DNA of 64,000 nucleotides. Source: Panorpa germanica. Taxonomy: Eukaryota > Arthropoda > Insecta > Mecoptera > Panorpidae. Made by a program: the position numbers and the translations under genes. Position 1 is the stretch's first letter. Every line of letters starts with the position of its first letter. The notes under the pieces are model-generated. The model was not told the DNA's origin, made no database searches, and saw only the letters and a program-made list of their open reading frames with translations. Positions 5,470-55,547 of the stretch are shown here, in pieces. The DNA is taken from positions 22,178,535 to 22,242,534 of the forward strand of contig OY783203.1 in NCBI GenBank assembly GCA_963678705.1, in the 5' to 3' direction.

Positions 5470-5720
5470 GTCTAGGACGAGGAGTGGCAAAAACTTTAAA
5501 TTGCTGCCCTTTTTAATAATTGCCGCCAATAATTCTAGTTATTTTATATGCATTGATATTTCTTTATTTATTATAGGAAATAATTTATTGAATTTGGCGC
5601 TCATAAAGATTCCGTTCGTGGTACGAACCCCGGCTTGCCATCTGATCTTCGGAGTATAACACTCGTGAAACGATGATATTAGATCAGTTGGCTTAACTGT
5701 GTGTATTTTAATAGAATAAT
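5470..5720 (-). repeat. Dispersed repeat with a tRNA-like B box (possible SINE relic)
   Basis: The part at about 5475-5590 (ggcaaaaactt, attgc, ccgccaataatt, tagttattttatatgcatt) recurs at about 47110-47220. On the minus strand the adjoining sequence contains gccggggttcgtaccacg, close to the pol III B box. No matching A box or poly-A tail could be fixed, so a SINE is only possible. Confidence 0.4.
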
Positions 5721-6840: not shown

Positions 6841-7592
6841 TAACGATGGTGATTCTTCTTAAAGAGATCGATTTTTTAATCGATTTGAATCGAAGTCTAA
6901 CGAATCGATTTTTCGATTCTTTTTGAGTTTTTATATAAGAAGACACTAACAAAAAAAAAAAAAGAAACGATCTTTTATCGATTTTACTTTTATTAAATTT
7001 GTAAAAATATACAAGCCTTTCTAATAACAAAAGTAAACAGTGATTTTTGATTAATCAATAAAGTCATGTATGTTTGTTAATTATTATAGAATCAAATAAT
7101 TAAAATTTCCAATATTTCATGTCTAAGCTTTTGAGAAATAAAAGTCAGTCCAATCTAGGATACATTCAACATAATGTAAATATAATTTTTTTTTTAATTT
7201 ATTTAACGTCGGCCTATTTCCGATGGTGAGTCCTATCTCCGACGACCTCCTTCAATGTTGGCAGTATTTGTGGTGTCGTGGCCTCATATATGTGGACCAC
7301 ACGGCTGCCTAATAAGTGTACAATTATGTATGATCATAATCAATATAAGTTAATAACAACCAAACCCAGAAAATATGTATCTAGTCCGGGGACATATCGA
7401 ACCCAAAGACACAGCAGTCAGCGTCAAGCGTCAATGCTCTCGCCCACTGTGTCGTCGTAAATATTTGTATACTTGCATTTTTACAAAAAAAAATTCGAAT
7501 ATCGATTATCAAGTGTTTGAGATCGATTCATGGGATCGATCCATTATTTAAAATCGATTTAAGAAATCTTCTTCAATTAATCGCTATCTCTA
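6841..7592. mobile_element. hAT-like MITE rich in ATCGAT, carrying a SINE
   Basis: The ends form imperfect inverted repeats. The left begins taacgatggtgattcttctt, and the right, reverse-complemented, begins tagagatagcgattaattga. Both continue with clustered ATCGATT words. The flanks show an 8-bp near-identical duplication, aagtaacc (6833-6840) and atgtaacc (7593-7600), 7 of 8 matching, as expected for hAT. A SINE occupies 7184-7456, so the original element was about 480 bp and non-coding. Confidence 0.8.
7184..7456 (-). mobile_element. tRNA-derived SINE, full-length copy
   Basis: Same family as 1948-2221, diverged (for example acatatcgaacccaaag replaces the B-box region, so this copy is probably promoter-damaged). 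Flanked by the 8-bp repeat gtaaatat at 7176-7183 and 7457-7464. It lies inside the ATCGAT-rich hAT element. Confidence 0.88.
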
Positions 7593-18340: not shown

Positions 18341-18432
18341 TAAGCCCAGAAAATGTAACTCTGGTCCGGGGATTGAACCTGAAGACACAGCTGTCAGCGT
18401 CAAGTATCAATGCTCTCGCTCACTGTGTCATC
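18341..18432 (-). mobile_element. tRNA-derived SINE, truncated head
   Basis: Matches the tRNA-like head of the SINE family (gacacagctgtcagcgtcaa, tgctctcgctcactgtgtca) up to cccagaaaatgtaactctgg; the tail half is absent. It starts about 20 bases after the end of piggyBac copy 2. Confidence 0.85.
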
Positions 18433-35607: not shown

Positions 35608-36466
35608 CTAGCTTTTGCCCCCGTCGCAAGCGACGTTTGCCTTTTGTGTGTGGCTTGAACTTCATGTAAAAATTTAAATTCCAGGAACGTTTATCCCCGT
35701 CGCAAAGGGACGTCTTTTTGGCGTGTATGATTTGAAACCAATAAAATAATTCGTAATTATATTTCATATTTAACTCTATTTTTAAATTGAAATAATAAAC
35801 TCGCTCAATAATAAATTGACAAAAAAAATATTTTTTTTTTATCAAAATAAAAAGTATTTTTAATTTATGCGTTATTTGACCAACTTTTTTTCAAAATTTA
35901 GGATTTTTTTTTTCGATTCGTAAATAAGTTACCAAGGGTAGCCTATATACAAAATTTCAACTTTCTAGCACAATTTTTACTCTTGGCAAACACTGCCCCC
36001 GTGCCCCCAAATAAAATTTTGAAATTTTGAATTTTTTTTCATTAATAATATACTTAATTATTCTAGAATTCTGAATATGAACTTTCTCCAAAGTTTCCTA
36101 CTGGGCCCCCGAATTTCTTTAACCCCCCCTTTTTCAATTTTTGAATTTCTAATTTTTGAGAAATATTAGCCTTAAATAGCTTAATACACATGCAAAATTT
36201 CAACTTTCTATCGTTCACGACTTAAAAGTAATACAGCAAAAAAGGGATCACTTTTTTTCCAGTTTTTCCAAAATTACGGGTTTCCAGGAAATTCAGGGAA
36301 AAATCCGGGGACGCCAAAAGTCTTAGAATTTTTTTCTCTACGAAATAGGAAATTTTCAAAAAGATCGTGGGAGCCGTTTTCGCGCTGCCATACAAAATTC
36401 AGTACCAAACATATAAACATATAAGAATATAAGAATAGATTCAAACACCTGGGACATTATAATATA
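35608..36466 (+). repeat. Hairpin-bounded unit 1 (small type)
   Basis: Starts ctagcttttgcccc, then the hairpin cgtcgc-aa-gcgacg (35622-35635) and a second, imperfect hairpin about 75 bp later. The body has characteristic gcccccgtgcccccaaata and gtttttccaaaattacgggt stretches. Ends with an ataagaat run and cacctgggacattataat. Followed head-to-tail by unit 2. No coding capacity was recognised. Confidence 0.85.
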
Positions 36467-37393
36467 CTAGCTTTTACCCCCGTCGCAAGCGACGTCTGTC
36501 TTTTGTGTGTGGCTTGAACTTCATGTAAAAATTTTAATTCTATCAGAGTTTACTCCCGTCGTAAAGCGTCTTTTTGGCGTGTATCATTTGAATCCAATAA
36601 AATAATTCGTAATTACATTTCATATTTAATTCTATTTTTAAATTGAAATAATAAATAAACTCGCACATATACATTGACACATTTAAATTGACTAAAAAAA
36701 ATATATTTTTTTTATCAAAATAAAAAATATTTTCAATTTATGCGTTATTTGACCAACTTTTTTTCAAAATTTGGAATTTTTTTTTTCGATTTGTAAATAA
36801 GTTACCAAGGTTAGCTTATATACAAAATTTCAAATTTGTAGCAAAATTTTTACTCTCGGAAAATACTGCCCCCGTGCCCCCAAATAAAATTTTGAAATTT
36901 TGAATTTTTTTTTATTAATACTATACTTAATTATTCTAAAATCCAGAATATAAACTTTCTCCAAAGTTCCCTACCGGGCCCCCGAATTTCTTCAACCCCC
37001 CCTTTGTCAATTTTTGAATTTTTATTTTTGAGAAATGTCAGCTTTGAATACCTTAATACACATGCAAAATTTCAACTTTCTATCTTTTACGAATTAAAAG
37101 TGATACAGCAAAAAAGGGCTCAATTTTTTTCCAGTTTTTCCAAAATTACGGGTTTCCAGGAAATTCAGGGAAAAATCTGGGGACGCCAAAAGTCTTAGAA
37201 TTTTTTTCTCTACGAAATAGGAAATTTTCAAAAACATTGATGGAACCGTTTTCGCGCTGCCATACAAAATTCAGTACCAAACATGTAAACATATAAGAAT
37301 ATAAGAATAGATTCAAACAGTTGGAACATTATAATATAGGATAAGAATATAAGAATGTAAGAATAGATTCAAACAGTTGGAACATTATAATAT
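36467..37393 (+). repeat. Hairpin-bounded unit 2 (small type)
   Basis: A near copy of unit 1: same start (ctagcttttacccccgtcgc), same order of internal words, same tail. Its tail (ataagaat run, tcaaacagttggaacatt, ataatatagg) is present twice in tandem at about 37293-37340 and 37341-37393. Confidence 0.85.
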
Positions 37394-38208
37394 AGGATAT
37401 TTTTTAAACTATAGCCCTATCTCTATATATTTCATATTTCTGGTCTTTGGCCCCCAGCGCCCGCCGCCTCTGGAAAGTTGCAATTTTCTATAGTGTGTCT
37501 TTAATGACACTCTATATAGGGCCCACGTTCCAAATATCAACGTTCTAGCTCTGTTGCGACATTGCCCCCAAAAAATCACGCCGCTACTGAATTAAAATTT
37601 TGGTAATCCAATTATTGGCAAACATGCGCAATTAGTGTCTTAATACATACCCTAAGTTATAATACTACATTTTCAATATTTTTGGCTTTTACTGTCTCAA
37701 CTCCCGCCGCCACTGGAAATTTGGGGCTGTTTATTTTTTTTCATTAATTACTGTCTACAGCGAGCCTACATATTAAATTTGAACGTCCTAACTCTATTCT
37801 AACATTGCCCCCAAAAATTCGCGCCGCTACTGAACTTAAATTTCAAATTTCCAACTATTGGAAAATGTGCACAATTATAATCTCAATACACATACCAAAT
37901 TTCAGTTTTCTATCTTTTCTAGTTCGTCAGATATTTGCAAAAGTATTTTTTCGAATTTTCCAGTTTTTCCAAAATTACGGGTTTCCAGGATATTCAGGGA
38001 AAAATCCGGGGACGCCAAAAGTCTTAGAATTTTTTTCTCTACGAAATAGGAAATTTTTAAAAAGATCGCCGGAGCCGTTTTCGCGCTGCCATACAAAATT
38101 CAGTACCAAATATATAAGATCATAAGAATATAAGAATATAAGAATATAAGAATATAAGAATATAAGAATATAAGAATATAAACAAACACCTGGGACATTA
38201 TAATATAT
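37394..38208 (+). repeat. Hybrid unit: large-unit interior joined to small-unit tail
   Basis: The first part (actatagccctatctc, cccccagcgcccgccgcct) matches the interior of units 4 and 5. The last part (gtttttccaaaattacgggt, ggggacgccaaaagtctta) matches the tail of units 1 and 2, ending cacctgggacattataat. It lacks the starting hairpin. A (tataagaa)n microsatellite lies at 38111-38181. Confidence 0.75.
38111..38181. repeat. (TATAAGAA)n-type microsatellite
   Basis: About eight iterations of aagaatat, at the tail position where the other small units carry two or three. Confidence 0.9.
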
Positions 38209-38305
38209 GATGACTAGCGCTTCGCCCCGTCGCAAAGCGACGTGTATTTAATATTTGTGAATAAATAAAAGTTATTTGATAAATAGAAAATAATCCTGAA
38301 ATATT

Positions 38306-39595
38306 GTTTATTTTTCGCCTTTCGGCTTTACAATCTACATTCTTAATACATTTCATATACTTCAACTTTTAATTAAATTTACATTATTCTCCACCAACTT
38401 ATTTATTCTTCTGTTTTTCCTTTCCTTCTTACTATTTCCGCCATCCACCTCTTTCCTTCACTGCCTCCCTTTAATAGCTGGCCAATATTCCTTTCGCTAG
38501 CTACTTTTTCCTTACACTCAAACTTAATGTGCTCCAGTGTTTCGTCCTCCGCTCCGCACACTCTACACTTTCTTTCCTCACTCTTTTCCCAGTATCTGTT
38601 TCCTTTTTCCTCATTTCCCAATCTAAACCTTGCTATTCTTCTTATGTGTTTTATGTATTTTTCTATAAGGTAATGAGGCACAGTATTTTCTTATAACCTT
38701 TTATATCTTTTATTGTAGTTACTTTTTTCTATTTTTCCCATTCTCAACTGCTGTTGTATCTCCTTATCCCTTCTCCTTAGCTCCTCTTCCACCTCCTTCT
38801 CTTCTCCTCTCTGCCTCCTCGATCGTCATTCCATTTCTTTCAAAGTACTATTTTCTCTTTTTTGTACCTCCTCTTTTCCCCATTCTTTATGCTATCCTCT
38901 CTTATTTTCTTTAAAATTTTGCTTTTCGCTCTGTTAAATTTCTCCTCGTATTTTACTGCTCTTTCCCCTGTTTTAATTCGTATCTTATCCCTTTTTAGCT
39001 CCTCCATAGCCATGTATCCTGGCGTGCACCTGTCCAGCCATAGTAACCATTTAATATATCTCACCTGTATTCTTTTCAACTTTTCTTGCTCCTTCCACCC
39101 CCAAACCTCTGCTCCATCCAACATCATACTGGCTATCAGTCTATCAAACATCCATATTCTCTTTTGTATGTCCCCCCCAAATACCTTTTCCCTTAGTCAC
39201 CATACCCGTCGCATTGCTAGCTCCGCCTTCTTTGCTACCTCCCTTATCTGAGCCTCTTCTTCATTGTTCTTTTTAAAAGTGTAGCCCAGATATTTGAATT
39301 CTTCTACTTCCTCAATGTCCTCTGTCTTGTATTTCCACCTTTTACGTCTTCTTTTTCCACCCCCTTTTTTAAATACCATAATTTTTGTCTTTTCCACATT
39401 TAACTCTAGTCCTTTCCTGTCTATATATCTCCCTAGCCGGTGAGCCATCTCCTGCAGCTCTCCTTCCTTTTTTGCCAACAGGACTATATCGTCAGCGTAT
39501 GCTAAAGTCCATATCTTGTAGTGTCTTCCTATTAGCACCCCATCATCTTGTTCTCTTTCCATTACCCCCTCCAAGTCTGCTGTATATATCGCAAA
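38306..39595 (-). mobile_element. 5'-truncated LINE (copy B) inserted in unit 4
   Basis: Minus-strand LINE ending, on its 3' side, with gtaaagccgaaaggcgaaaa. The flanks carry an eroded direct repeat (aaaataatcctgaaatatt left, aaaatgcaaaatatt right) that matches uninterrupted unit 5 (gaaaataatgcaaaatatt near 42541). Insertion is thus later than formation of unit 4. Boundaries are good to within about 10 bases. Confidence 0.85.
38403..39590 (-). pseudogene. LINE ORF2 C-terminal half: reverse transcriptase fragment, thumb and zinc motif
   Basis: About 390 codons in three frames. First part: LFAIYTADLEGVM, then LAYADDIVLLAKKEGE (the YADD active site of reverse transcriptase), GLELNVEKTKIMVF and FKYLGYTF, up to RRVW-stop at 39197. 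Second part (38840-39151): MFDRLIASMMLDGAEVWGWK and CTPGYMAMEELKRDK. Third part (38403-38681): RRIARFRLGNEEKGNRYW, CRVCGAEDETLEHIKFEC and IGQLLKGGSEGKRWM. The last holds a C-x2-C-H-C zinc motif. Frameshifts and a stop separate the parts, so it is inactive. From memory the sequence style is that of LINEs abundant in Hymenoptera; the clade was not determined. Confidence 0.88.
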
Positions 39596-41123
39596 TAAAA
39601 TGCAAAATATTATTTTGTTATAATTCCTTTATTTACAGTAATAAAGCACTGTATTGACCAGTCTCCAGTGCCTCCGCCCATAAGCCCCAATCGTCACCTC
39701 TTGGCTCCATGCTCTTTTACGTTTCCGAACTTTTAATTTGATTCCTCTAAACTTCTGCCATAAAGCGCCTCCTACTTTTAGCACTCTGCATCGCTTCTTC
39801 CCTGAGCATCGTCGGTCCTTAGAGTACTTTCACAGCGCCCCCGCTGCGTAAAATTATCATTTAGCATAATGAAGCACAGTATTGATCAATGTCCACTGCC
39901 CCGCCCCTAACCATCAATCACCTCTTGGCTCCATGCTCTGTATTGTTCTCGCACTTTTAAATGTAATCATCTGCACCTTTGCCATAATGCGCCCACTTGC
40001 AACACTACAGCTTAACTGAATATCTTTGCTTATTAGGGCACTTTCCTATACCCCCCGTTGAGCGCAATCATTAAATAATCCTGCGCTTCCACCCCCTGCG
40101 TACTAATCTCTTAACAATTAGTTTTCCAAATTAATACTTTACTGGTAACCTGCATACTAAATTTCATCCTTAGAAGTACATTATTTTTTAATAATTATTC
40201 GATAAGATAAATCTTTGATAACATTTTCACTAATTTCAATGTAAACCTACTAATTACATCAATTCATTTATGTTTTTAAGAAAGTCTAGCAGTTCGCTCC
40301 TAATAATCTCATCTCTAGGCCTTTTCCTTACCGTTATTGCACTTTCGATTCAATCCCCATACCCCGCCACCCTCACTTTCAGCACCAAAGCACATATTCT
40401 GCAATACGGTTACCTCCCAGAGCCATTATAATCTATCGCCACTACTTGTAACACCACTGTTACTTAGAACTGAACCCCAGCGCCACACTTTTCTCCAATC
40501 AGACACTACCAATTCGCTATTACAGCAATTCATTTACATGATTAAAACTGTACTGTAATCTTACACTCTATATTTCGTATTTATATTTACGTTATAATAT
40601 TAGTCTCCCCATTAATCCCCGCTCCTGAAATAAAATTGTCAAATTTTAGGCATAGCAATCTATTTTGCTCGTAACAACTCTCACTACCTTTATCTACCCC
40701 TACTTTTATAAATGATCGAAATTTCAAAATTCAGTTCTTTGGCAAAGCTTTTTCCCGCCCCCACTTCCCCAATTTCACGCCGCTACTAAGGTTAAATTTA
40801 TTTTCGCAAATATGCACGTGCATAGTTTCTATTTTTTCACTTTTTCTATTTTTTGATATTTGGGGCTGTTAACTATTTCCCCCCTATACCTCTCACTCCT
40901 GTTCGATTTCACAGCACAACAAACGCACCAAAAATCAATCCAATTCTACTACTGAATGTAATTTGAATATCTGACTTATAGAGATCTATTTAGCTTTTAT
41001 TTAATATTCTACATGCAAAATATCATCGTTGTATCTCTACATTGTTCTTATATTCGGTTTATCACCCGCCACTCTAATGTTGCACTTAAGAAAATGTAGT
41101 TTTTTTTATATTTTCGTAATAAT

Positions 41124-41890
41124 AATGTCAATCTATATCTGCATACTAAATTTCAGTTTTGTATATATATTTTAGCATTAGTACCCCCCACATACCACCG
41201 CTACTGAACAAGTTTGTCAAATTTTAGCACGAGGATCTATTTTATTTGTATCTAAGAATATATATTCTAAACTATAGCCTTTCATCGCCATATATTTCAA
41301 ATATATGGTTTTTGGCCCCCAGCGCCCGCCGCCTCTGGAAAGATGCAAATTTCTATAGTGTGTCTTTAATGACACTCTATATATGGCCCCCGTTCCAAAT
41401 TTTAACGTTCTAGCTCTGTTGCGACATTGCCCCCAAAAAATCACGCCGCTACTGAATTAAAATTTTGGTAATCCAATTATTGGCAAACATGCACAATTAA
41501 TGTCTTAATGTCAATCTATATCTGCATACTAAATTTCAGCTTTGTATTTAAATTTTAGCATTAGTACCCCCCACATACCACCGCTACTGAACAAGTTTGT
41601 CAAATTTTAGCACGAGGATCTATTTTATTTGTATCTAAGAATATATATTCTAAACTGTAGCCTTTCATCGCCATATATTTCAAATATATGGTTTTTGGCC
41701 CCCAGCGCCCGCCGCCTCTGGAAAGTTGCAAATTTCTATAGTGTGTCTTTAATGACACTCTATATATGGCCCCCGTTCCAAATTTTAACGTTCTAGATCT
41801 GTTGCGACATTGCCCCCAAAAAATCACGCCGCTACTGAATTAAAATTTTGGTAATCCAATTATTGGCAAACATGCACAATTAATGTCTTA
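41124..41890 (+). repeat. 383-bp tandem duplication inside unit 4
   Basis: The stretch beginning atgtcaatctatatctgcat is present twice in direct order with an offset of 383-384 bp, nearly identical. The two 75-codon minus-strand frames at 41217-41444 and 41600-41827 are shadows of it. A single diverged copy occurs in unit 5 near 45815-46150. Confidence 0.9.
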
Positions 41891-44495
41891 ATACATATCC
41901 AAAGTTTTAATACTTCTTTTTCAATATTTCTGGCTTTTATTGTCTCAACTACCGCCGCCACTGGAAATTTGGGGCTGTTTATTTTTTTTCATTAATTACT
42001 GTCTACAGCGAGCCTACATATTAAATTTGAACGTCCTAACTCTATTCTAACATTGCCCCCAGAAATTCGCGCCGCTACTGAACTCAAATTTCAAATTTCC
42101 AACTATCGGAAAATGTGCACAATTATGATCTCAATACACATACCAAATTTCAGTTTTCTATCTTTTCTAGTTCGTCAGATATTAGCAAAATTATTTTTTC
42201 GAGTTTTTCAGTTTTTCCAGTATAAGTTTTTCCACGGAAATTCAGGGGAGAATTCAGGGACGTAGAAAGTCTTAGAAATTCGTCCTTTACATCATACCAA
42301 AATTTGAAGAACTTTGTAGGCGCCGTTTAGAAGATACCATATACGATTTTGTTACCGGATATATATATATAAATATATAAATATATAAATAACGCTCTAT
42401 ATAAATATCTATGAGTTCTTATGAGTTTTCCATGTTAAATTGGAACATTACGAACATTATAATAGGTAGACTAGCGCTTCGCCCCGTCGCAAAGCGACGT
42501 GTATTTAATATTTGTGAATAAAAAAAGTTATTTGATAAATTGAAAATAATGCAAAATATTATTTTTAAGTAATTTTCGCAAAAATATATCATTTTTTAAA
42601 TTTATATTTCCTTATTTTGTTATAATTCCTTTATTTACTGTTATAAAGCACTATATTGACCAGTCTCCAGTGCCTCCGCCCATAAGCCCCAATCGTCACC
42701 TCTTGGCTCCATGCTTTCTTACGTTTCCGAACTTTTAATTTGATTCCTCTAAACTTCCGCCATAGAGCGCCTTCTTCTTTTAGCACTCTGCATCGCTTTT
42801 TCCCTGAGCATCGTCGGTCCTTAAAATACTTCCACAGCGCCCCCGCTGCGTAAAATTATCATTAACCATAATGAAGCACAATATTGATTAATGTCCACTG
42901 CCCCGCCCCTAAACACCAATCACCTCTTGGCTCCATGCTCTGTATCGTTCTTGCACTTTTAATTGTATTCATCTGCATCTTTGCCACAATGCGCCCACTT
43001 GCAACACTACATGCTACCTGAGCATCATCGCTCATTAGGGTACTTTTCTATCCCCCCCGTTTAGCGCAATCATTAAATAATCCTGCGCTTCCACCCCTGC
43101 GTACTAATCTCTTAACAATTAGTTTTCAAAATTAATACTATACTGGCAACCTGCATACTAAATTTCATCCTTAGAAGTACATTATTTTTTAATAATTATT
43201 CGATAAGATAAATCTTTGATAAAATTTTCACTAATTTCAATGTAAACCTACTAATTACATCAATTCATTTATGTTTTTAAGAAAGCCTAGCAGTTCCCTC
43301 CCAATAATCTCATCTCTAGGCCTTTTCCTTCCCGTTATTGCACTTCCCCATACCCCGCCACCCACACTTTCAGCACCAAAGCACATATTCTACAACACGG
43401 TTACCTCCCAGAGCCATTATAATCTATCGCCACAACTTCTAACACCACCGTTACTTAGTACTGAACCCCAGCGCCACACTCTCTTCCAATCAGGCACTAT
43501 TAATTCGATATTATAGCAATTCATTTACATGAATAAAACTGTACTGTAATCTTACATTCTATATTTCGTATTTATATTTACGTTATAATATTAGTCACCC
43601 CATTATAGCGGGGGCTCCTGAAATAAAATTGTCAAATTTTAGGCATAGCAATCTATTTTGCTCGTAGCAACTCTCTCTACCTTTATCTACCCCTACTTTT
43701 ATAAATGATCGAAATTTCAAAATTGAGTTCTTTAGCAAAGCTTTTTCCCGCCCCCACTTCCCCAATTTCACGCCGCTACTAAGGTTAAATTTATTTTCGC
43801 AAATATGCACATGCATAGTTTCTATTTTTTCACTTCATCTATTTTTTGATATTTGGGGCTGTTAACTATTTCCCCCCTATACCTCTCACTCCTGCTCGAT
43901 TTCACAGCACAACAAACGCACCAAAAATTAATTCAACTCTACTATTGAATGTAATTTGAATATCTGACTTATAGAGAACTATTGTGCTTCTATTTAATAT
44001 TCTACATGCAAAATATCATCGTTGTACCTCTATATTGTTATTATACTCGGTTTAACACCCCCTGCTCTAATGGTACACATAAGAAAATATAGTTTGTTTA
44101 TATTTTCGTTATTAATGTGTCAATCTATATCTGCATACTAAATTTCAGCTTTGTATTTTTTTTTTAGCATTAGTACCCCCCACATACCTCCGCTACTGAA
44201 GAAGTTTGTCAAATTTTAGCACGGGGATCTATTTTATTTGTACCTAAGAGCATATATTCTAAACTATAGCCATTCATCTCTATATATTTCATATTTCTGT
44301 TTTTCGGCCCCCAGCGCCCGCCGCCTCTGGAAAGTTGCAGTTTTCTATAGTTTGTCTTTAATGACACTCTATATAGGGCCTACGTTCCAAATATCAACTT
44401 TTTACCTCTATTGCGACATTGCCCCCAAAAAATCACGCCGCTACTGAATTAAAATTTTGGTAATCCAATTATTTTCAAACATGCGCAATTAGTGT

Positions 44496-44560
44496 CTTTG
44501 TGAAAAATCTTTACCCATCATTAGGGCCCCCAAACAAATTTGGCACTGCCGGGAAATCCG
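44496..44560 (+). repeat. Fragment related to the CAGGGGCGTAG hAT element
   Basis: gtgaaaaatctttacccatc followed by attagggcccccaaacaaat closely resembles 22788-22830 near the right end of the 22.2 kb hAT element. A short hAT fragment inside unit 5 is likely, but its limits are unclear. Confidence 0.5.
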
Positions 44561-45023
44561 AAATAAATATTTCTTTACGGGTTATCACTTTTATTTTTTA
44601 AGTAGCTAACTTGTCTGCATGCAATGCTATTAAAGTTGTTGTGTAAGAAAACACGGTTTGACAGAACAATTTTGTAAATACCAATTTTGTAATATTATAT
44701 ATAAATATGTAAAATTAAATCCATGTTCCTGTGGGGTGCTTAATTAAAGGAGATGTAGTACAGAATTTTTTTTTTGTGTTAGTATATCTAATATTACCTT
44801 TTATCTTTGTATCCATATATTCGGTTTATTACTCTGCCCCACTACCCCGCTAAGAAAAATATTCTTTAATTTATTTTCGTTAGTAATATTTTAATGTAAA
44901 TCTGCAAACAAAATTTTAGCTTTGTATTTACATTTTAGCATTAGAGCCCCTCACATATCTCCGCTACTGAATTAAATTTGTCAAATTTTAGTTACGGGAA
45001 TCTATTTTGTTTGTACTCAAAAA

Positions 45024-45024
45024 C

Positions 45025-45056
<32 letters not shown>

Positions 45057-45088
45057 TATATTTAATATATATATATATATATATATAT
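45024..45088. repeat. Two (TA)n microsatellite runs
   Basis: TA runs at about 45024-45051 and 45065-45088 separated by taataatatattta. Confidence 0.9.
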
Positions 45089-46765
45089 TAAATTGTAGCC
45101 CTTCATCCCTATATATTTATTATTTCATGTTTTACGCCCGCCGCCACTGGAAATTTAAAATTTTGTCTAATTTTCCTTTAATTACCATCTATATAGGGCC
45201 CACGTTCCAAATTTCAACGTTCTAGGTCTGTTACGACATTGCAACCAAAAATTCACGCCACTACTGAATTCAAATTTTGATATTCCAATTATTAGCAAAC
45301 ATGCACAATTAGTGCCTTAATACATACCCCTAGTTTTAATATAATTTTTTCAATATTAAATTTTAATTTAAATTGAATTTTTTTTACTGTCTGAACTCCC
45401 GCCGCCACTGGAAATTTAGGGCTGTTTAGTTTTTTCATTAATTACTGTCCACAAGGAGCCTACATATTAAATTTGAACGTCCTTACTCTATTCCAACATT
45501 GCTTCCAGAAATTCGCGCCGCTACTGAACTTAAGTTTCTAGTCTCCAACTATTGGCAAATGTGCACATTTATGATCTCAATACACATACCAAATTTCAGT
45601 TTTCTATCTTTTCTAGTTCGTCAGATACTTACAAAAGTATTTCTTCGAATTTTCCAGTTTTGTTCATTTTAGCATTAGAGCCTCTCACATATCTCCACTA
45701 CTGAATTAAAGTCCAAATATGTACCTCTTTATCGTTCTTATCATCAGTTTATTACCTCTGCCCTAATGTTACACTAAAGAAAATGTAGTTTCTTTATATT
45801 TTTATTGTTATTGTCAAACTATATCTGCATACTAAATTTCAGCTTTGTATTTAAATTTTAGCATTAGTACCCCCCACATACCACCGCTACTGAACAAGTT
45901 TGTCAAATTTTAGCACGAGGATCTATTTTATTTGTATCTAAGAATATATATTCTAAACTATAGCCTTTCATCGCCATATATTTCAAATATATGGTTTTTG
46001 GCCCCCAGCGCCCGCCGCCTCTGGAAAGTTGCAAATTTCTATAGTGTGTCTTTAATGACACTCTATATATGGCCCCCGTTCCAAATTTTAACTTTCTAGC
46101 TCTGTTGCGACATTGCCCCCAAAAAATCACGCCGCTACTGAATAATCGAACTAATCTAATTATTGGCAAACATGCGCAATTAGTGTCTCCATACATACCC
46201 TAAGTTATAATACTACATTTTCAATATTTCTGGCTTTTACTGTCTCAACTCCCGCCGCCACTGGAAATTTGGGGCTGTTTTTTTTTTTCATTAATAACTG
46301 TTTACAGCGAGCCTACATATTAAATTTCAACGTCCTAACTGTATTCTAACATTGCCCCCGGAAATTCGCGCCGCTACTGAACTCAAATTTCAAATTTCCA
46401 ACTATTGGAAAATGTGCACAATTATAATCTCAATACACATACCAAATTTCAGTTTTCTATCTTTTCTAGTTCGTCAGATATTAGCAAAAGTATTTTTTCG
46501 AATTTTCCAGTTTTTCCAGTATAAGTTTTTCCACGGAAATTCAGGGGAAAATTCAGGGACGTAGAAAGTCTTAGAAATTCGTCCTTTACATCATACCAAA
46601 ATTTGAAGAACTTTGTAGGCGCCGTTTAGAAGATACCATATACGATTTTGTTACCGGATATATATATAAATAAATAAATATATAAATATATAACGCTCTA
46701 TATAAATATCTATGAGTTCTTATGAGTTTTCCATGTTAAATTGGAACATTACGAACATTATAATA

Positions 46766-47218
46766 AGTAGATATAAGACTATATTAACAATATACTCATA
46801 TAATGCTTTTTTTAATGGTTAATTAGCTCCAAATTGGTACTTTCTAATAACTTAAATAGCACCAGAAACTTATTGTATCATTTCAAGAGCGCAATTGGCA
46901 TAAAGCGACTGTTTAAATGACTATATTTAATAAAATTGTACTACTTCATTTTACCCTAGGACGTTAAACAAGTTGCTAAATAGGTTCGATACTTTAAGAC
47001 TAATTAGGTAACCTAATAATGTTAATAACAGTAATTTGAAAAATCTTCTATTTACACTTATCGAAACAAATGACATCTTCTTGACAGTAAAGTAGGTGAT
47101 CCGGATCTAGGATGTTCTCGAGACGGGGCAAAAACTTATAATTGCCGTCAATAATTTTAGTTATTTTACATGCATTAATATTACTTTCTTTATTATTTAC
47201 AATAGTTTCTTAATTAAT
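46766..47218. other. No gene; partial dispersed repeat
   Basis: The 47110-47218 part matches about 5475-5590. Nothing else is recognisable. Confidence 0.5.
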
Positions 47219-48280
47219 TCATATCCTATATTATAATGTTCCAAGTGTAAATTTATGATCTTATTTTCTTATATTCTTATGATCTTATATGATTGGTGAC
47301 GACACAGTGGGCGAGAGCATTGATGCTTGACGCCGACTGCTATGTCTTCGGGTTCGATCCCCGGACCAGATATATATTTTCTGGGTTTGGTTATTATGAA
47401 CTTATATTGATTATGGTCATACATAATCATACAGTTATTAGGCAGTGGTGTAGCCCACATATATGAGGCCACGACACCATAAATACTGCCAACATTGAAG
47501 GAGGTCGTCTGTGATAGGACTCAGCATCGGAAATAGGCCGACGTTAAATAAAAAAAAAAAAAAAAATATATGATTGGTAGTGAATTTTGTATGGTAACTC
47601 AAAATGTTTATGAAAATTGCCTATTTTGTAGAGAATTCTAATCCTTTTGGCGTCCCAGGATTTTTCCTTGAATTTCCTGGAAACCCGTAATATTGGAAAA
47701 ACTGAAAAAAAAAGTGAGCCCTTTTTGCTGTATAACTTTGTAATCGTTAAAGATAGACGGATGAAATTTTGTATGGGTATTATGCTTTTAAATGCTAACA
47801 TATTTCAACGTTTAAAAAATCTAAATTTGATAAAAGGGGCGCCGGGAAAATTAGGAGGCCCGGTAGAAAACTTTGAAGAAAGCTCAAATTTTGGATTGTG
47901 TAATAATTGAATAACATATTAAAAAAAAAAATTAAAAATTCAAATATTTTATTTGGGGCACGGGGGCGGTCTTTGCAGAAGGTACTGGAAAGTTAAAATT
48001 TTGTATATGGGCTAACTTTGGTACCTAATTTACGAATCGAAAATAAAAATCACAAATTTTGAAAAAAAGTTGGCCAAATAACGAATAAATTGAAAATATT
48101 TTTTATTTTGTCAAAAAAAAAAAAATTTTTTTAATCAGTTTATATGAAAAATGATTTGTTTTTATATGTAATATTAATATAGAACGAGTTAAATATTTCA
48201 ATTTAAAAATGGAACGAAAATTTTAAATGAAATTCAAGTCACACACAAAAGATAATCGTCGCTTGCGACATTTACAAAGA
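47219..48280 (-). repeat. Hairpin-bounded unit 6 (small type, inverted), interrupted by a SINE
   Basis: Reverse-complement copy of units 1/2. It runs from tcctatattataatgttcc (tail) through ggcgtcccaggatttttcct and gaaacccgtaat to cgtcgcttgcgaca (head hairpin, 48257-48269). The only copy in this orientation here. A SINE is inserted in its tail region. Confidence 0.85.
47298..47566 (+). mobile_element. tRNA-derived SINE, full-length copy, best preserved
   Basis: Starts gacgacacagtgggcgagag, B box gggttcgatcccc, ends gacgttaaata plus a poly-A run. It is bounded by the perfect 12-bp direct repeat tatatgattggt at 47286-47297 and 47567-47578. The 269-bp element lies inside unit 6. Both pol III boxes look intact, so this copy could be transcription-competent; that is an inference. 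Confidence 0.96.
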
Positions 48281-48980: not shown

Positions 48981-48983
48981 TAA

Positions 48984-49383
48984 GGCCGTCTGCACACGGG
49001 TCGACTGATTGCAAACTCGAAGTCTCCAACGAAAACGAAAAACGAGCCATGTCGACCCGTCTTTCGTGACTTTATAGATTTTTTTTACAATAGCATAATG
49101 GGGGATTTTATTGTGTCGTATTCAGAGGTATTTGTATGTATGTACATCTCTGCTTATGATGATGTCACCATCAAAAGCGTGCAACGTAAGTGCCCTGCGA
49201 CCAAGAAACACAGTCGCTCAAAACTGTTCAAAACCAATCATCTCAGCAATCTATCAGTTTAGTTTCGTTCGTACCGTGTGTCTTCTCTCACTCGTATATA
49301 CGTGCGTTCTCTCACTAACAATACAGTTGCATTATCATTCGGTTCGGGCAGATTCGGGGCTCCCGTTTGCCTAACCCGCGGCC
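48984..49383 (+). mobile_element. PIF/Harbinger-like MITE, copy 3
   Basis: Left end ggccgtctgcacacgggtcg. The right end is eroded (gcctaacccgcggcc). TAA on both sides (48981-48983, 49384-49386). The interior matches the 27.2 kb copy in the same orientation. Abuts the next element directly. Confidence 0.85.
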
Positions 49384-49386
49384 TAA

Positions 49387-49655
49387 GACCTATCGCACAC
49401 TTAAACCGTATTTCCGCGAATTTAGACCAGACGTATACGCACTACAATGCTTTACCGATCCGAATACTGTAAATGTAATGAACCCTCGCACACTGTAAAC
49501 GACAAAGCCCTCCGAATAGGAGTTATTTGTACCTTGCACGTATTCCTGCGTTTTCGCTTTAACCTTCGCATCCTCTTTTTACGCCAGTTAGCTCTCATTC
49601 TGTCAACTTATGCATTACAAAATGTAAATTATGTATCTCTCATACTGTAACAGGG
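49387..49655 (+). mobile_element. Second Harbinger-like MITE family (GGCCTGTCTCA), copy 1
   Basis: The left end gacctatcgcacacttaaac with accgtatttccgcgaattt and agacgtatacgc aligns with the reverse complement of 58010-58195 (ggcctgtctcagtatggcac, gaatttcggccggacgtata). The right end, reverse-complemented, reads ccctgttacagtatgagaga, a diverged inverted copy of the left end. It starts immediately after the TAA of the preceding MITE. Confidence 0.55.
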
Positions 49656-50607
49656 GCAGGGTGTGAAGGGTGGCAGCAAGAAGGCACTCTGCGAAGAAGA
49701 CAGGTCATTAATATCAAGTGGGAGATTTTGCTGATGGGGTGGAATTGATTTAGATCTGTTGTATTACGATTTGACAAGTTCCTTTTATTGCAATGGTCCT
49801 TGTTTTTTATTTTATTTTTTGATTTGTTATTTGATTTTTTTGTATATTCGTCCCCATACATAGTGCCGTGTCAAAGAGCTTTATAATAATTCGAACGTGT
49901 CAGAACAGTCAGAAAACAAAATTATTCCTCACTTTATTTTATCACTCTATTCAGTTAAGAAACAAAGAGGTCTATATGTCCTTAAATGGATAAATAAACC
50001 ATTAAACAATTAAAATATTTGGGGAAGATGGTCACATCGAAATCTAAAACTTCCAAAAACATTTCTGTAACGCTACTAGTACCGCCGTTTAGTATACGCC
50101 TGATTAAACTTATTTACCAAAAACCGTCATTTTACATTGCGCGCAGTGAGTTGGACAGCTGTGTAAAAGTAAAGACGTTATAAAATAATTAAAAATTCGA
50201 TGAAGGTAAGCTTAAAGTGATTTATACCAATCAATATCTTTCTAAACATCAATTATTACCCACATATTAGTGTATCCTATGGGCTTGTTGGATTTCATGA
50301 AAGTTCTTCACGTTTTTAGTGATCAATCAAAAAACCATTATCGATTTTTGGGTAATGGCAGTCATTCTTAGCGGGTAATAGCGGTCACTGAATCTATGCG
50401 ATTATTGTGAGAGCAAAAGCAGAGTTCTTAAGCATCTTGATATGTAGGTAATTTTTATAGTCCCTATATTAAAAGAATAATAATATGTTTGGTTTATTAT
50501 AAAAAAAAGAATGATTTGGTTAAAATATAAAAAATAAAGAACATGTATGGAACAAAACAGTTATTTTATTTTATTAATTACTTTATTTTAGACGGTAATC
50601 GGTATTG
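49656..50607. other. No gene seen
   Basis: A 73-codon minus-strand frame at 49640-49861 is Asn/Lys-rich and unsupported. Confidence 0.45.
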
Positions 50608-50610
50608 TAA

Positions 50611-51035
50611 GGCAGTCCGCACATGGATCAACTGATTGCATACGCCCCGAATCTGCCCGAACCGAATGAGAATGCAACTGTGTTATTAATGAGAGAACGC
50701 ACGTGTATACGAGTGAGAGAATACACACGACACGAATGATACTAAAATTATTTGAAATTGATTTTGAACGACTGTGTTTCTTGGTCGCAGGGTAATTACG
50801 TTGCATTCTTTTAAAGGTGACATCATAAGCAGATATGTGCACAAATACTATTCAAAAGTATTTAAATACATTCATACAAATACCTCAGAATACGATACAA
50901 TAAAATCCCCATCTATGCTATTGTTAAAAATTCTATTGAGTCACGAAACACGGCTCGACATGGCTCGTTTTTCCTTTACGTTGGAAACTTCATTCCCGGC
51001 TAGTTTGCAATCAGTCGACCCACGTGTGGACGGCT
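50611..51035 (-). mobile_element. PIF/Harbinger-like MITE, copy 4
   Basis: Ends ggcagtccgcacatggatca and (reverse-complemented) agccgtccacacgtgggtcg. TAA duplications at 50608-50610 and 51036-51038. Same orientation as copy 1. Confidence 0.88.
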
Positions 51036-54577: not shown

Positions 54578-55547
54578 TAGGACTTCTGGACCCGACCCGG
54601 ACTCGAATCCGTCGGGTATTGACAATAAACCCGAACCAGGGACCCGGGTAGAAAACCCGACGGATCCGGGTCCGAATGCTTTTGCTGGTGTAAATGCAAA
54701 ATTAACCAGACGCGATACCAATAAAAAGAAACAACTTACAGGATTAAAGTAATTTTGCTATTTTGAAATAATGAAAAGAATTTCTTAAGATGCAAGTAAG
54801 CACTTCACTGGGTTTTCCCAATGTTAAGTAAACATGTTAGTCCAATCATCCTATTCGATTGTAAGTATTGGTCTAATTAACAGTTCATCGAAATTCATAG
54901 ATTATTATTTTTTTTTAATTATTGTTTAGAAGATTCTTCAATCTTACATACGAGTATATAATTAGATTTCGAAAAATAATGAGCGAGAAGAATATTGTGC
55001 AGTTATTAAAGGGAGGCAGTGAAGGGAAGAGGTGGATGGTGGAAATAGAGAAAAAGAACGAGGAAAAGAAAAGTAACGCCAGAGCAGAAGTAATTTTCAT
55101 CTGAAGTGACAAAGAGACGAAGAGACAAAGAAGACAAGAGGTGAGGAAATGATGAGAATGAAAGAGGACTAGGGACTAGAAAATGAAGGCAGTGGGTCAA
55201 GAGAAGAAGAAGCAGGAAAGTACTTTTGGAAATAGAAAGTGACATTAGAGTAACCGCTTCTGGAGCAACTGCCCTTTTTGTTTGTATATTTCTTTTCTCT
55301 TTTGGAAGAAATGAGAATGCTATGTAATTAAGCACAATGATATGTAATTTATTGATTTAAGGCGCAAGAATGTAGTGCCTAATGGCAAAAACATTACAAT
55401 AAATAATAATAATAATATATAATTAGATTTCGATAACGCAAAAATAAATGAATTGCGATTGTTACTTGAAAATTAAGATGTTTTTTACATTTTCCTGATT
55501 TTGGACCCGACTCGGACCCGAACCCGGATCAGGTTTCAGAAGCCCTA
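54578..55547 (+). mobile_element. hAT-like element, TAGGNCTTCTG family, copy 2, carrying a LINE end
   Basis: Left end taggacttctggacccgacc, right end reverse-complemented tagggcttctgaaacctgat, both followed by ggacccga/cccggatc words. Flanks atgacagt (54570-54577) and aagacagt (55548-55555) match at 7 of 8 bases. The LINE at 54973-55415 interrupts it. The remaining roughly 510 bp is non-coding. Confidence 0.88.
54973..55415 (+). mobile_element. 5'-truncated LINE 3' end (copy C) with 18-bp target duplication
   Basis: Flanked by the perfect 18-bp repeat tatataattagatttcga at 54955-54972 and 55416-55433. The first codons give NIVQLLKGGSEGKRWMVEIE and stop at 55101. The 3' part ends ttaaggcgcaagaatgtagt, gcctaatggcaaaaacatta and an (aat)n tail. 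It belongs to the same family as copy A by 3' end and to that of copy B by protein. Confidence 0.95.

Follow-up and report, generated by a model that had tools for sequence, protein, structure and literature searches.

Array of repeat units at 35608-48280

Region 35608-48280 of a 64-kb window from Panorpa germanica (OY783203.1; coordinates are those of this whole window unless a contig is named) holds an array of hairpin-bounded repeat units (Table 1). We read it as a nest of non-autonomous canonical Helitrons that would have grown by insertion into the front ends of older copies, together with some block duplication, and we give this reading a probability of about 0.8. Repeat and alignment tools agreed on the position of the array as given by an earlier inspection of the letters alone, hereafter the original prediction, and alignment bore out its inventory: two forward copies of a unit of about 0.86 kb (U1 and U2), one inverted copy (U6) and two long units sharing their ends, U4 (4,257 bp) and U5 (4,301 bp). 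U1 and U2 are 91.8% identical (785/855 aligned positions) and U4 and U5 93.9% (2,804/2,986), while U6 shows 77-78% identity to U1 and U2 once a short interspersed nuclear element (SINE) that it contains is excluded from the comparison. An interior of about 1.3 kb in U5, at about 44498-45808, is without counterpart in U4. The hairpin with CTAG and the CATTATAAT that had been taken for the start and the end of the units are present as claimed, but the polarity must be reversed: the supposed start is the 3' end, the supposed end is the 5' end, and the units lie on the minus strand.

Ends of the units and their assignment to canonical Helitrons

The four minus-strand 3' ends in the array, at 35608, 36467, 38214 and 42471, all read CGTCGC-TT(T)-GCGACG, 10 nucleotides (nt), CTAG and then T, with a uniform hairpin geometry (stem 6, loop 2-3, spacer 10; 14-15 nt in total). 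The palindrome of canonical Helitrons usually measures 16-20 nt and lies about 10-12 nt ahead of the 3' end, which makes the present ones slightly short. A generic scan of the window for stem, spacer and CTRR returned five matches, four of them unit ends, as against 0 or 1 in eight Markov-1 simulations. Folding compared with shuffles gave a z of -3.3 for the U4/U5 end and weaker values for U1 (-0.9) and U2 (-1.5). At 46771 and 37397 the 5' end reads A|TC, and at 42470 and 38213 CTAG|TC (the bar marks the join); U1 is the exception, its first bases lying ahead of a composite element in the parse given below. The CTAG that the original prediction had noted at the junctions as compatible with rolling-circle movement is the Helitron 3' terminus itself. 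Its statement that terminal inverted repeats are absent also holds, since inverted matches of end against end were not beyond chance (longest 5-6 nt in U1, U2, U4 and U5; shuffles average about 7).

A six-frame Pfam search of the array, with X at stops, found RVT_1 only and no Rep or Hel domain. The claim that there is no recognisable protein was thus correct for Rep/helicase and failed for a fragment of a long interspersed nuclear element (LINE) with an RVT_1 match inside U4. From the TC and CTAG ends, the A|T sites and the lack of both terminal inverted repeats and Rep/helicase, the array units are, judged by sequence, non-autonomous canonical Helitrons and not Helentrons. The rolling-circle interpretation first proposed is thereby sharpened, both ends being confirmed in copies elsewhere.

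The Helentron-like alternative offered with it fared less well. Helentrons and HINEs are recognised by TT insertion and subterminal inverted repeats of 12-15 bp; here the target is A|T, not T|T, the ends are TC and CTAG, and the four units tested show no subterminal inverted repeats, their longest inverted matches (5-6 nt) not exceeding those of shuffles. That the units are of Helentron type or HINEs is therefore very unlikely, even though DINE-1-like elements, too, have a 3' hairpin and a microsatellite close to the 5' end, as set out in an extract of PMC4067079.

Copies elsewhere in the genome

The 464-Mb assembly from which the window comes (249 contigs) was searched with an exact 3'-end pattern, which matched 2,125 + 2,110 = 4,235 times on the two strands; the reversed pattern matched 0 times. 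T was absent after 245 of the 4,235 ends, so that by subtraction 3,990, about 94%, are followed by T. Among the 100 non-T ends listed of these 245, 88 read CTCTAG and seven were of the U1 type AAAAGCTAG; to go by U1/U2 and loci L041-L044, the CTCTAG ends may represent an older terminator inside the unit. T stood at +1 in 40/40 further 3' ends, a separate set taken out of the 100 listed on contig 1. Isolated copies had the form A|TC...CTAG|T with differing flanks in 9/9 cases, these nine having been chosen for clear ends on both sides. Among non-chosen loci, L026 and L028 had a 3' end and no match to the 5' pattern, and L024 and L027 had extra family 5' ends; the remaining ones lay in arrays or repeated other loci. 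Intact 5' ends A|TCATATATTATAATG were found in L020-L023 and L025, and 26/28 of the left flanks that passed the filter ended in A. The search for unit ends and isolated insertions that the original prediction had proposed thus gave the same boundaries as in the array.

A LINE or SINE tail, named in advance as evidence against this kind of element, is not what these copies show, the units ending in TC and CTAG. We therefore rejected a LINE or SINE identity of the units, the LINE and the SINE being inserts in U4 and U6; the earlier remark that there is no poly-A holds for the unit ends and not for U6, inside which a SINE with poly-A sits. The 3'-end patterns matched 0 times in viral contigs and 0 times in prokaryote genome contigs, as expected for a eukaryotic element. 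That the array consists of some other non-autonomous element, or of a plain satellite, resembling a Helitron could be argued from its lack of an encoded replicase and from the failure to find a partner among 12 Rep-bearing stretches (see below). We regard this as extremely improbable in view of the 4,235 exactly spaced ends on both strands, the T after CTAG in about 94% of them and the single copies with differing flanks.

Array parse and proposed order of insertion

One possible reading covers the whole array: the A of the host is followed by U5, U4, TCA, composite C, the rest of U1 and, last, the T of the host, with all joins of A|T type. The TCA at 38211..38213 would be the first three bases of U1, severed by the composite at TCA|TATATT. 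Nested copies elsewhere have the matching form A|TCA|TC...CTAG|TATATTATAATG (L010 and L012), and family copies with intact TCATATATT can serve as empty versions of the TCA|TATATT site. The geometry suggests the insertion order U1, C, U4, U5: U1 would have landed first and be the oldest unit, C would have entered it at TCA|TATATT, U4 would have been inserted at the host A just before the TC of U1, and U5 would have gone in ahead of U4. In this parse the original site, without duplication, would have read ...TCTTATA|TATTCTATAAAG...

Table 1. Features of the Helitron array in the window.
Feature	Position	Strand	Remarks
U1, short Helitron, portion past its TCA	35608..36466	-	3' end CTAG|T at 35608; copies elsewhere in genome
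U1 3' terminal hairpin	35622..35635	-	CGTCGC-TT-GCGACG
Decayed terminator-like sequence in U1	35698..35712	-	About 75 bp ahead of true end; alignment of inner with true end
U2, short Helitron, 931 bp	36467..37397	-	5' end carries 56-bp duplication
U2 3' terminal hairpin	36481..36494	-	
Composite Helitron C, 1,744 bp	36467..38210	-	5' end TCATATATT..., 3' end ...CTAG; U3 part plus U2
U3 part	37398..38210	-	Mosaic: about 260 nt of U1-type 5' end, then U4/U5-type interior; ends at A|T where U2 starts
TCA footprint	38211..38213	-	Putative first bases of U1
U4, long non-autonomous Helitron, 4,257 bp including LINE insert	38214..42470	-	Joins U5 as CTAG|TCTACC
U4 3' terminal hairpin	38228..38242	-	CGTCGC-TTT-GCGACG
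LINE fragment in U4, reverse transcriptase with YADD motif	38294..39600 (approximate)	-	RVT_1, E 9.6e-12
383-bp tandem duplication in U4	41123..41892	-	2.0 copies, 98% matches
U5, long non-autonomous Helitron, 4,301 bp	42471..46771	-	5' end A|TCTACTTATTATAATG at 46771; CTAG 3' end at 42471
U5 3' terminal hairpin	42485..42499	-	
U6, inverted short copy	47224..48270	+	5' A|TCCTATATTATAATG; 3' end lost beyond hairpin
SINE with poly-A inside U6	47298..47566	+	Direct repeat ATATGATTGGT on each side

The composite includes what the original prediction had called a start-less hybrid. This piece, the U3 part, indeed has no start of its own, but it is better read as the front part of a composite that ends with U2. 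Its first part agrees with the 5' end of U1-type units at 205/215 positions; beyond about 260 nt it has a U4/U5-type interior (about 95% identity over summed alignment blocks), and the homology to U4 extends to the junction where the TC of U2 begins. The composite would go back to the landing of U2 within a long unit, followed by a transposition that started at the 5' end of the long unit and stopped at the CTAG of U2. The internal junction of C occurs three more times in one 19-kb array, C1:1111000-1130000 on contig 1, at 89-96% identity over 1,598-1,672 bp of the query. C is thus present at two places on different contigs and appears to have moved as one element, although the three contig-1 copies could be local duplicates. 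A search left of 35608 for the absent 3' part of U3 gave local alignment scores within those of shuffles, and that candidate was rejected.

A related trace lies at the 3' end of the short units. About 75 bp ahead of its true end U1 carries a terminator-like sequence with a counterpart in U2 near 36555-36568, which we infer to be an older, decayed 3' terminator. It may be a second trace of terminator exchange and would fit the 3'-end bypass of Helraiser. As a separate observation, internal CTCAAG|TATATT junctions recur in L012, L014, L017, L043 and L044; they look like CTCTAG terminators mutated between fused units, as if dimers had become single elements.

Tandem Helitrons can be explained by rolling-circle over-replication or by serial insertion, which are hard to distinguish; the three-base TCA footprint left beyond a nested copy marks serial insertion and lends itself to a genome-wide count. 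In the over-replication scenario the stop at the 3' end failed and several unit lengths were inserted together as a concatemer. The perfect CTAG|TC joins between U5 and U4 and between U4 and TCA speak for it, the consulted section of PMC4778049 documents circular Helraiser forms joined in this way, and footprints and junctions go unmatched in 6/10 arrays (see below). Against this, units of two types lie side by side in the window, U1 differs from U2 and U4 from U5 by 6-8%, and a TCA footprint together with CTAG|TATATT is unpredicted; we consider a concatemer improbable.

Such an array could also be built from one inserted unit by unequal crossing-over or by segmental tandem duplication. Spacings of 832, 2570 and 1877 recur on contig 1, and a block of about 3.3 kb is repeated at L009. 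The window units differ in type and length, however, and their joins are element termini; duplication could amplify arrays and would not create such joins. As the source of the array itself it is unlikely. Multi-unit blocks appear to be tandemly duplicated at L009 (period about 3.3 kb) and at C1:4072525-4089961 (about 5.3 kb), and from these sequences block duplication appears to be a second way of array growth in some arrays.

Head-to-tail bias and a proposed target preference

We return to growth by insertion into older copies and to the question of its direction. The junction GCTAG|TATATTATAATGT occurs 528 times genome-wide, its reversed control 0 times and its opposite-orientation counterpart 0 times, the last zero counting for less because the opposite-orientation pattern was the stricter one (8 exact element bases, TCC and TCA types only, as compared with 5 for the same orientation). 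A sequence sample of 241,877 bases contained 18 same-orientation junctions and 0 opposite ones. Within the first 100 of the 4,235 ends, all on contig 1, neighbours at most 5 kb apart lay on the same strand in 51 cases and on opposite strands in 6, with 0/10,000 strand shuffles as extreme; uniform placement of these ends would give about 10 such pairs in total. Taken by clusters, the first pair was same-strand in 13/16 (hand count), the pairs of the test being partly non-independent.

The flanks point to a target preference that would act in one orientation. TATA, ATAA or TTAT at +6 to +12 was present in 19/22 right flanks (the motif was derived from 20 right flanks, 22 with two restored), in 5/17 left flanks read backwards (hand-picked from 28) and in 1,612/10,560 A|T sites outside the array (15.3%). 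With the test fixed, 29/32 new flanks passed (40 further ends, 8 of them excluded as nested), or 24/27 without five that resemble family DNA. The family 5' end TC(A/C)TATATTATAATG bears a TATA-like word at the matching position. Insertion would favour A|T where the DNA 6 to 12 bases downstream is AT-rich and TATA-like, and head-to-tail growth would follow because the 5' end of the element supplies the preferred target in one orientation. Whether the family's own 5' end serves its members as a strand-specific landing site, with arrays and new composites as by-product, we judge to be evenly balanced. If it does, nested copies bring new terminators and would provide a simple route to mobile composites without capture of host genes. 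Within the limits of the patterns, the one-way bias of 528 to 0 means that the target preference of a Helitron transposase can be tested by sequence analysis.

Footprints and junctions agree in number in 4/10 arrays that have either (footprints/junctions: the window 1/1, L010 1/1, L012 2/2, L044 1/1), and arrays L013 and L017 have neither the TCA footprint nor the CTAG|TATATT junction.

Several results weigh against serial insertion at a preferred 5' end as the whole account. Footprints and junctions do not match in the other 6/10 arrays (L007 at most 1/2, L009 2/0, L011 0/2, L014 2/1, L043 3/2, C1:1111000-1130000 3/5), and the 241,877-base sample holds 8 exact footprints to its 18 junctions; the mismatch implies a contribution from duplication or composites as well. 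Some arrays consist of duplicated blocks, so that the 528 junctions are not independent, and composites bring CTAG|TATATT junctions along with them. Similarity of the flanks to the element 5' end is modest (right flanks 6.1/12, left flanks read backwards 5.6, background 4.7): compared with AT-matched sites the right flanks reach a P of 0.018 only, and the left flanks too lie above background (P 0.009). Finally, the joined flanks of the nine isolated copies, compared with the sampled sequence, gave spanning matches inside the query loci only, and the 12 Rep-bearing stretches described next, eight of which may be too short to show it, gave no end of the kind found in the units.

Candidate autonomous partners

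Helitron_like_N (PF14214) was detected in 150 places, being those scored of 893 candidates, with open frames of up to 1,489 amino acids, and in 0/14 control genomes. No hairpin with a CTRR end was found in 12 Rep-bearing stretches (four of 7-8 kb and eight of 3.5 kb, the latter perhaps too short to include the ends). The long copies encoding Rep/helicase that the original prediction suggested looking for were accordingly not seen with unit ends among these 12, with the same limit for the eight short stretches. Presumably a Rep/helicase of other origin mobilised the array units in trans.

Relation to known Helitrons

According to an extract of its description (PMC4778049), Helraiser/Helibat1 shares with the present units the 5' TC, the 3' CTAG, a hairpin about 10-11 nt from the end, the A|T target, a preference for AT that peaks on the 3' side and a bypass of the 3' end that captures flanking DNA. 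From the same extract, the palindrome is of 19 bp in Helraiser and 14-15 nt here, a coding region is lacking here, and terminal sequences are family-specific; in distinction to Helraiser as there described, a TATA-like word can be seen here 6-12 nt past the target. An asymmetric flank preference was thus already known, since the AT preference of Helraiser is strongest on the 3' side; it is its match to the element's own end that would build the arrays.

Adjacent head-to-tail Helitrons are reported for maize in PMC2267711, which also cites bat cases of Pritham and Feschotte. By comparison, arrays here are common and longer, a second nesting point is found three bases into the 5' end, and there is a composite element. 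Tandem truncated Helitrons of plant centromeres have been linked to a circular intermediate (cited in an excerpt of PMC5148889); they have tandem arrays in common with the family described here, whereas footprints in part of the present arrays favour serial nested insertion. The insect family Hel1 (PMC6544945, partial text) is, by its description, likewise non-autonomous, with a 3' hairpin and stepwise acquisition of sequence. Among titles and abstract openings we found no literature on self-targeting of a Helitron 5' end. The element is of a known kind; added are a nesting point inside the 5' end that leaves a TCA footprint, a bias towards one orientation and a composite made of family parts alone.

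Inserts and neighbouring elements

The LINE fragment of U4 is missing from U5, and its flanks, compared with U5 by eye, show no clean target duplication. LINE-like fragments related to it lie at 445-697 and 54982-55067 (81% and 85% identical). In the U4/U5 region (38214-46771) the Helitron strand is purine-rich even without the LINE, with a GC skew of +0.28 to +0.30, and degenerate internal repeats are present.

The SINE in U6 is bounded by an 11-bp direct repeat and is 99.3% identical to a copy at 1953-2221, which makes it probably young. SINEs of this family with poly-A lie at 1953-2221, 7186-7456, 18342-18432 and 47298-47566. U6 itself lacks CTAG, its end having been lost or mutated 3' of the hairpin. 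A short repeat that ends beside the 5' end of U6 (47138-47215) is 83.5% identical to 5516-5594; the latter was rejected as an empty site for U6, as on inspection by eye its right side is not continued.

ARAGORN found no tRNA, and there was no Rfam match at gathering scores. At 48981-51030, about 1.3 kb is enclosed by a pair of long inverted arms (about 340 bp, 82-89% complementary piece by piece), and from its sequence this resembles a DNA transposon of the kind with long terminal inverted repeats.

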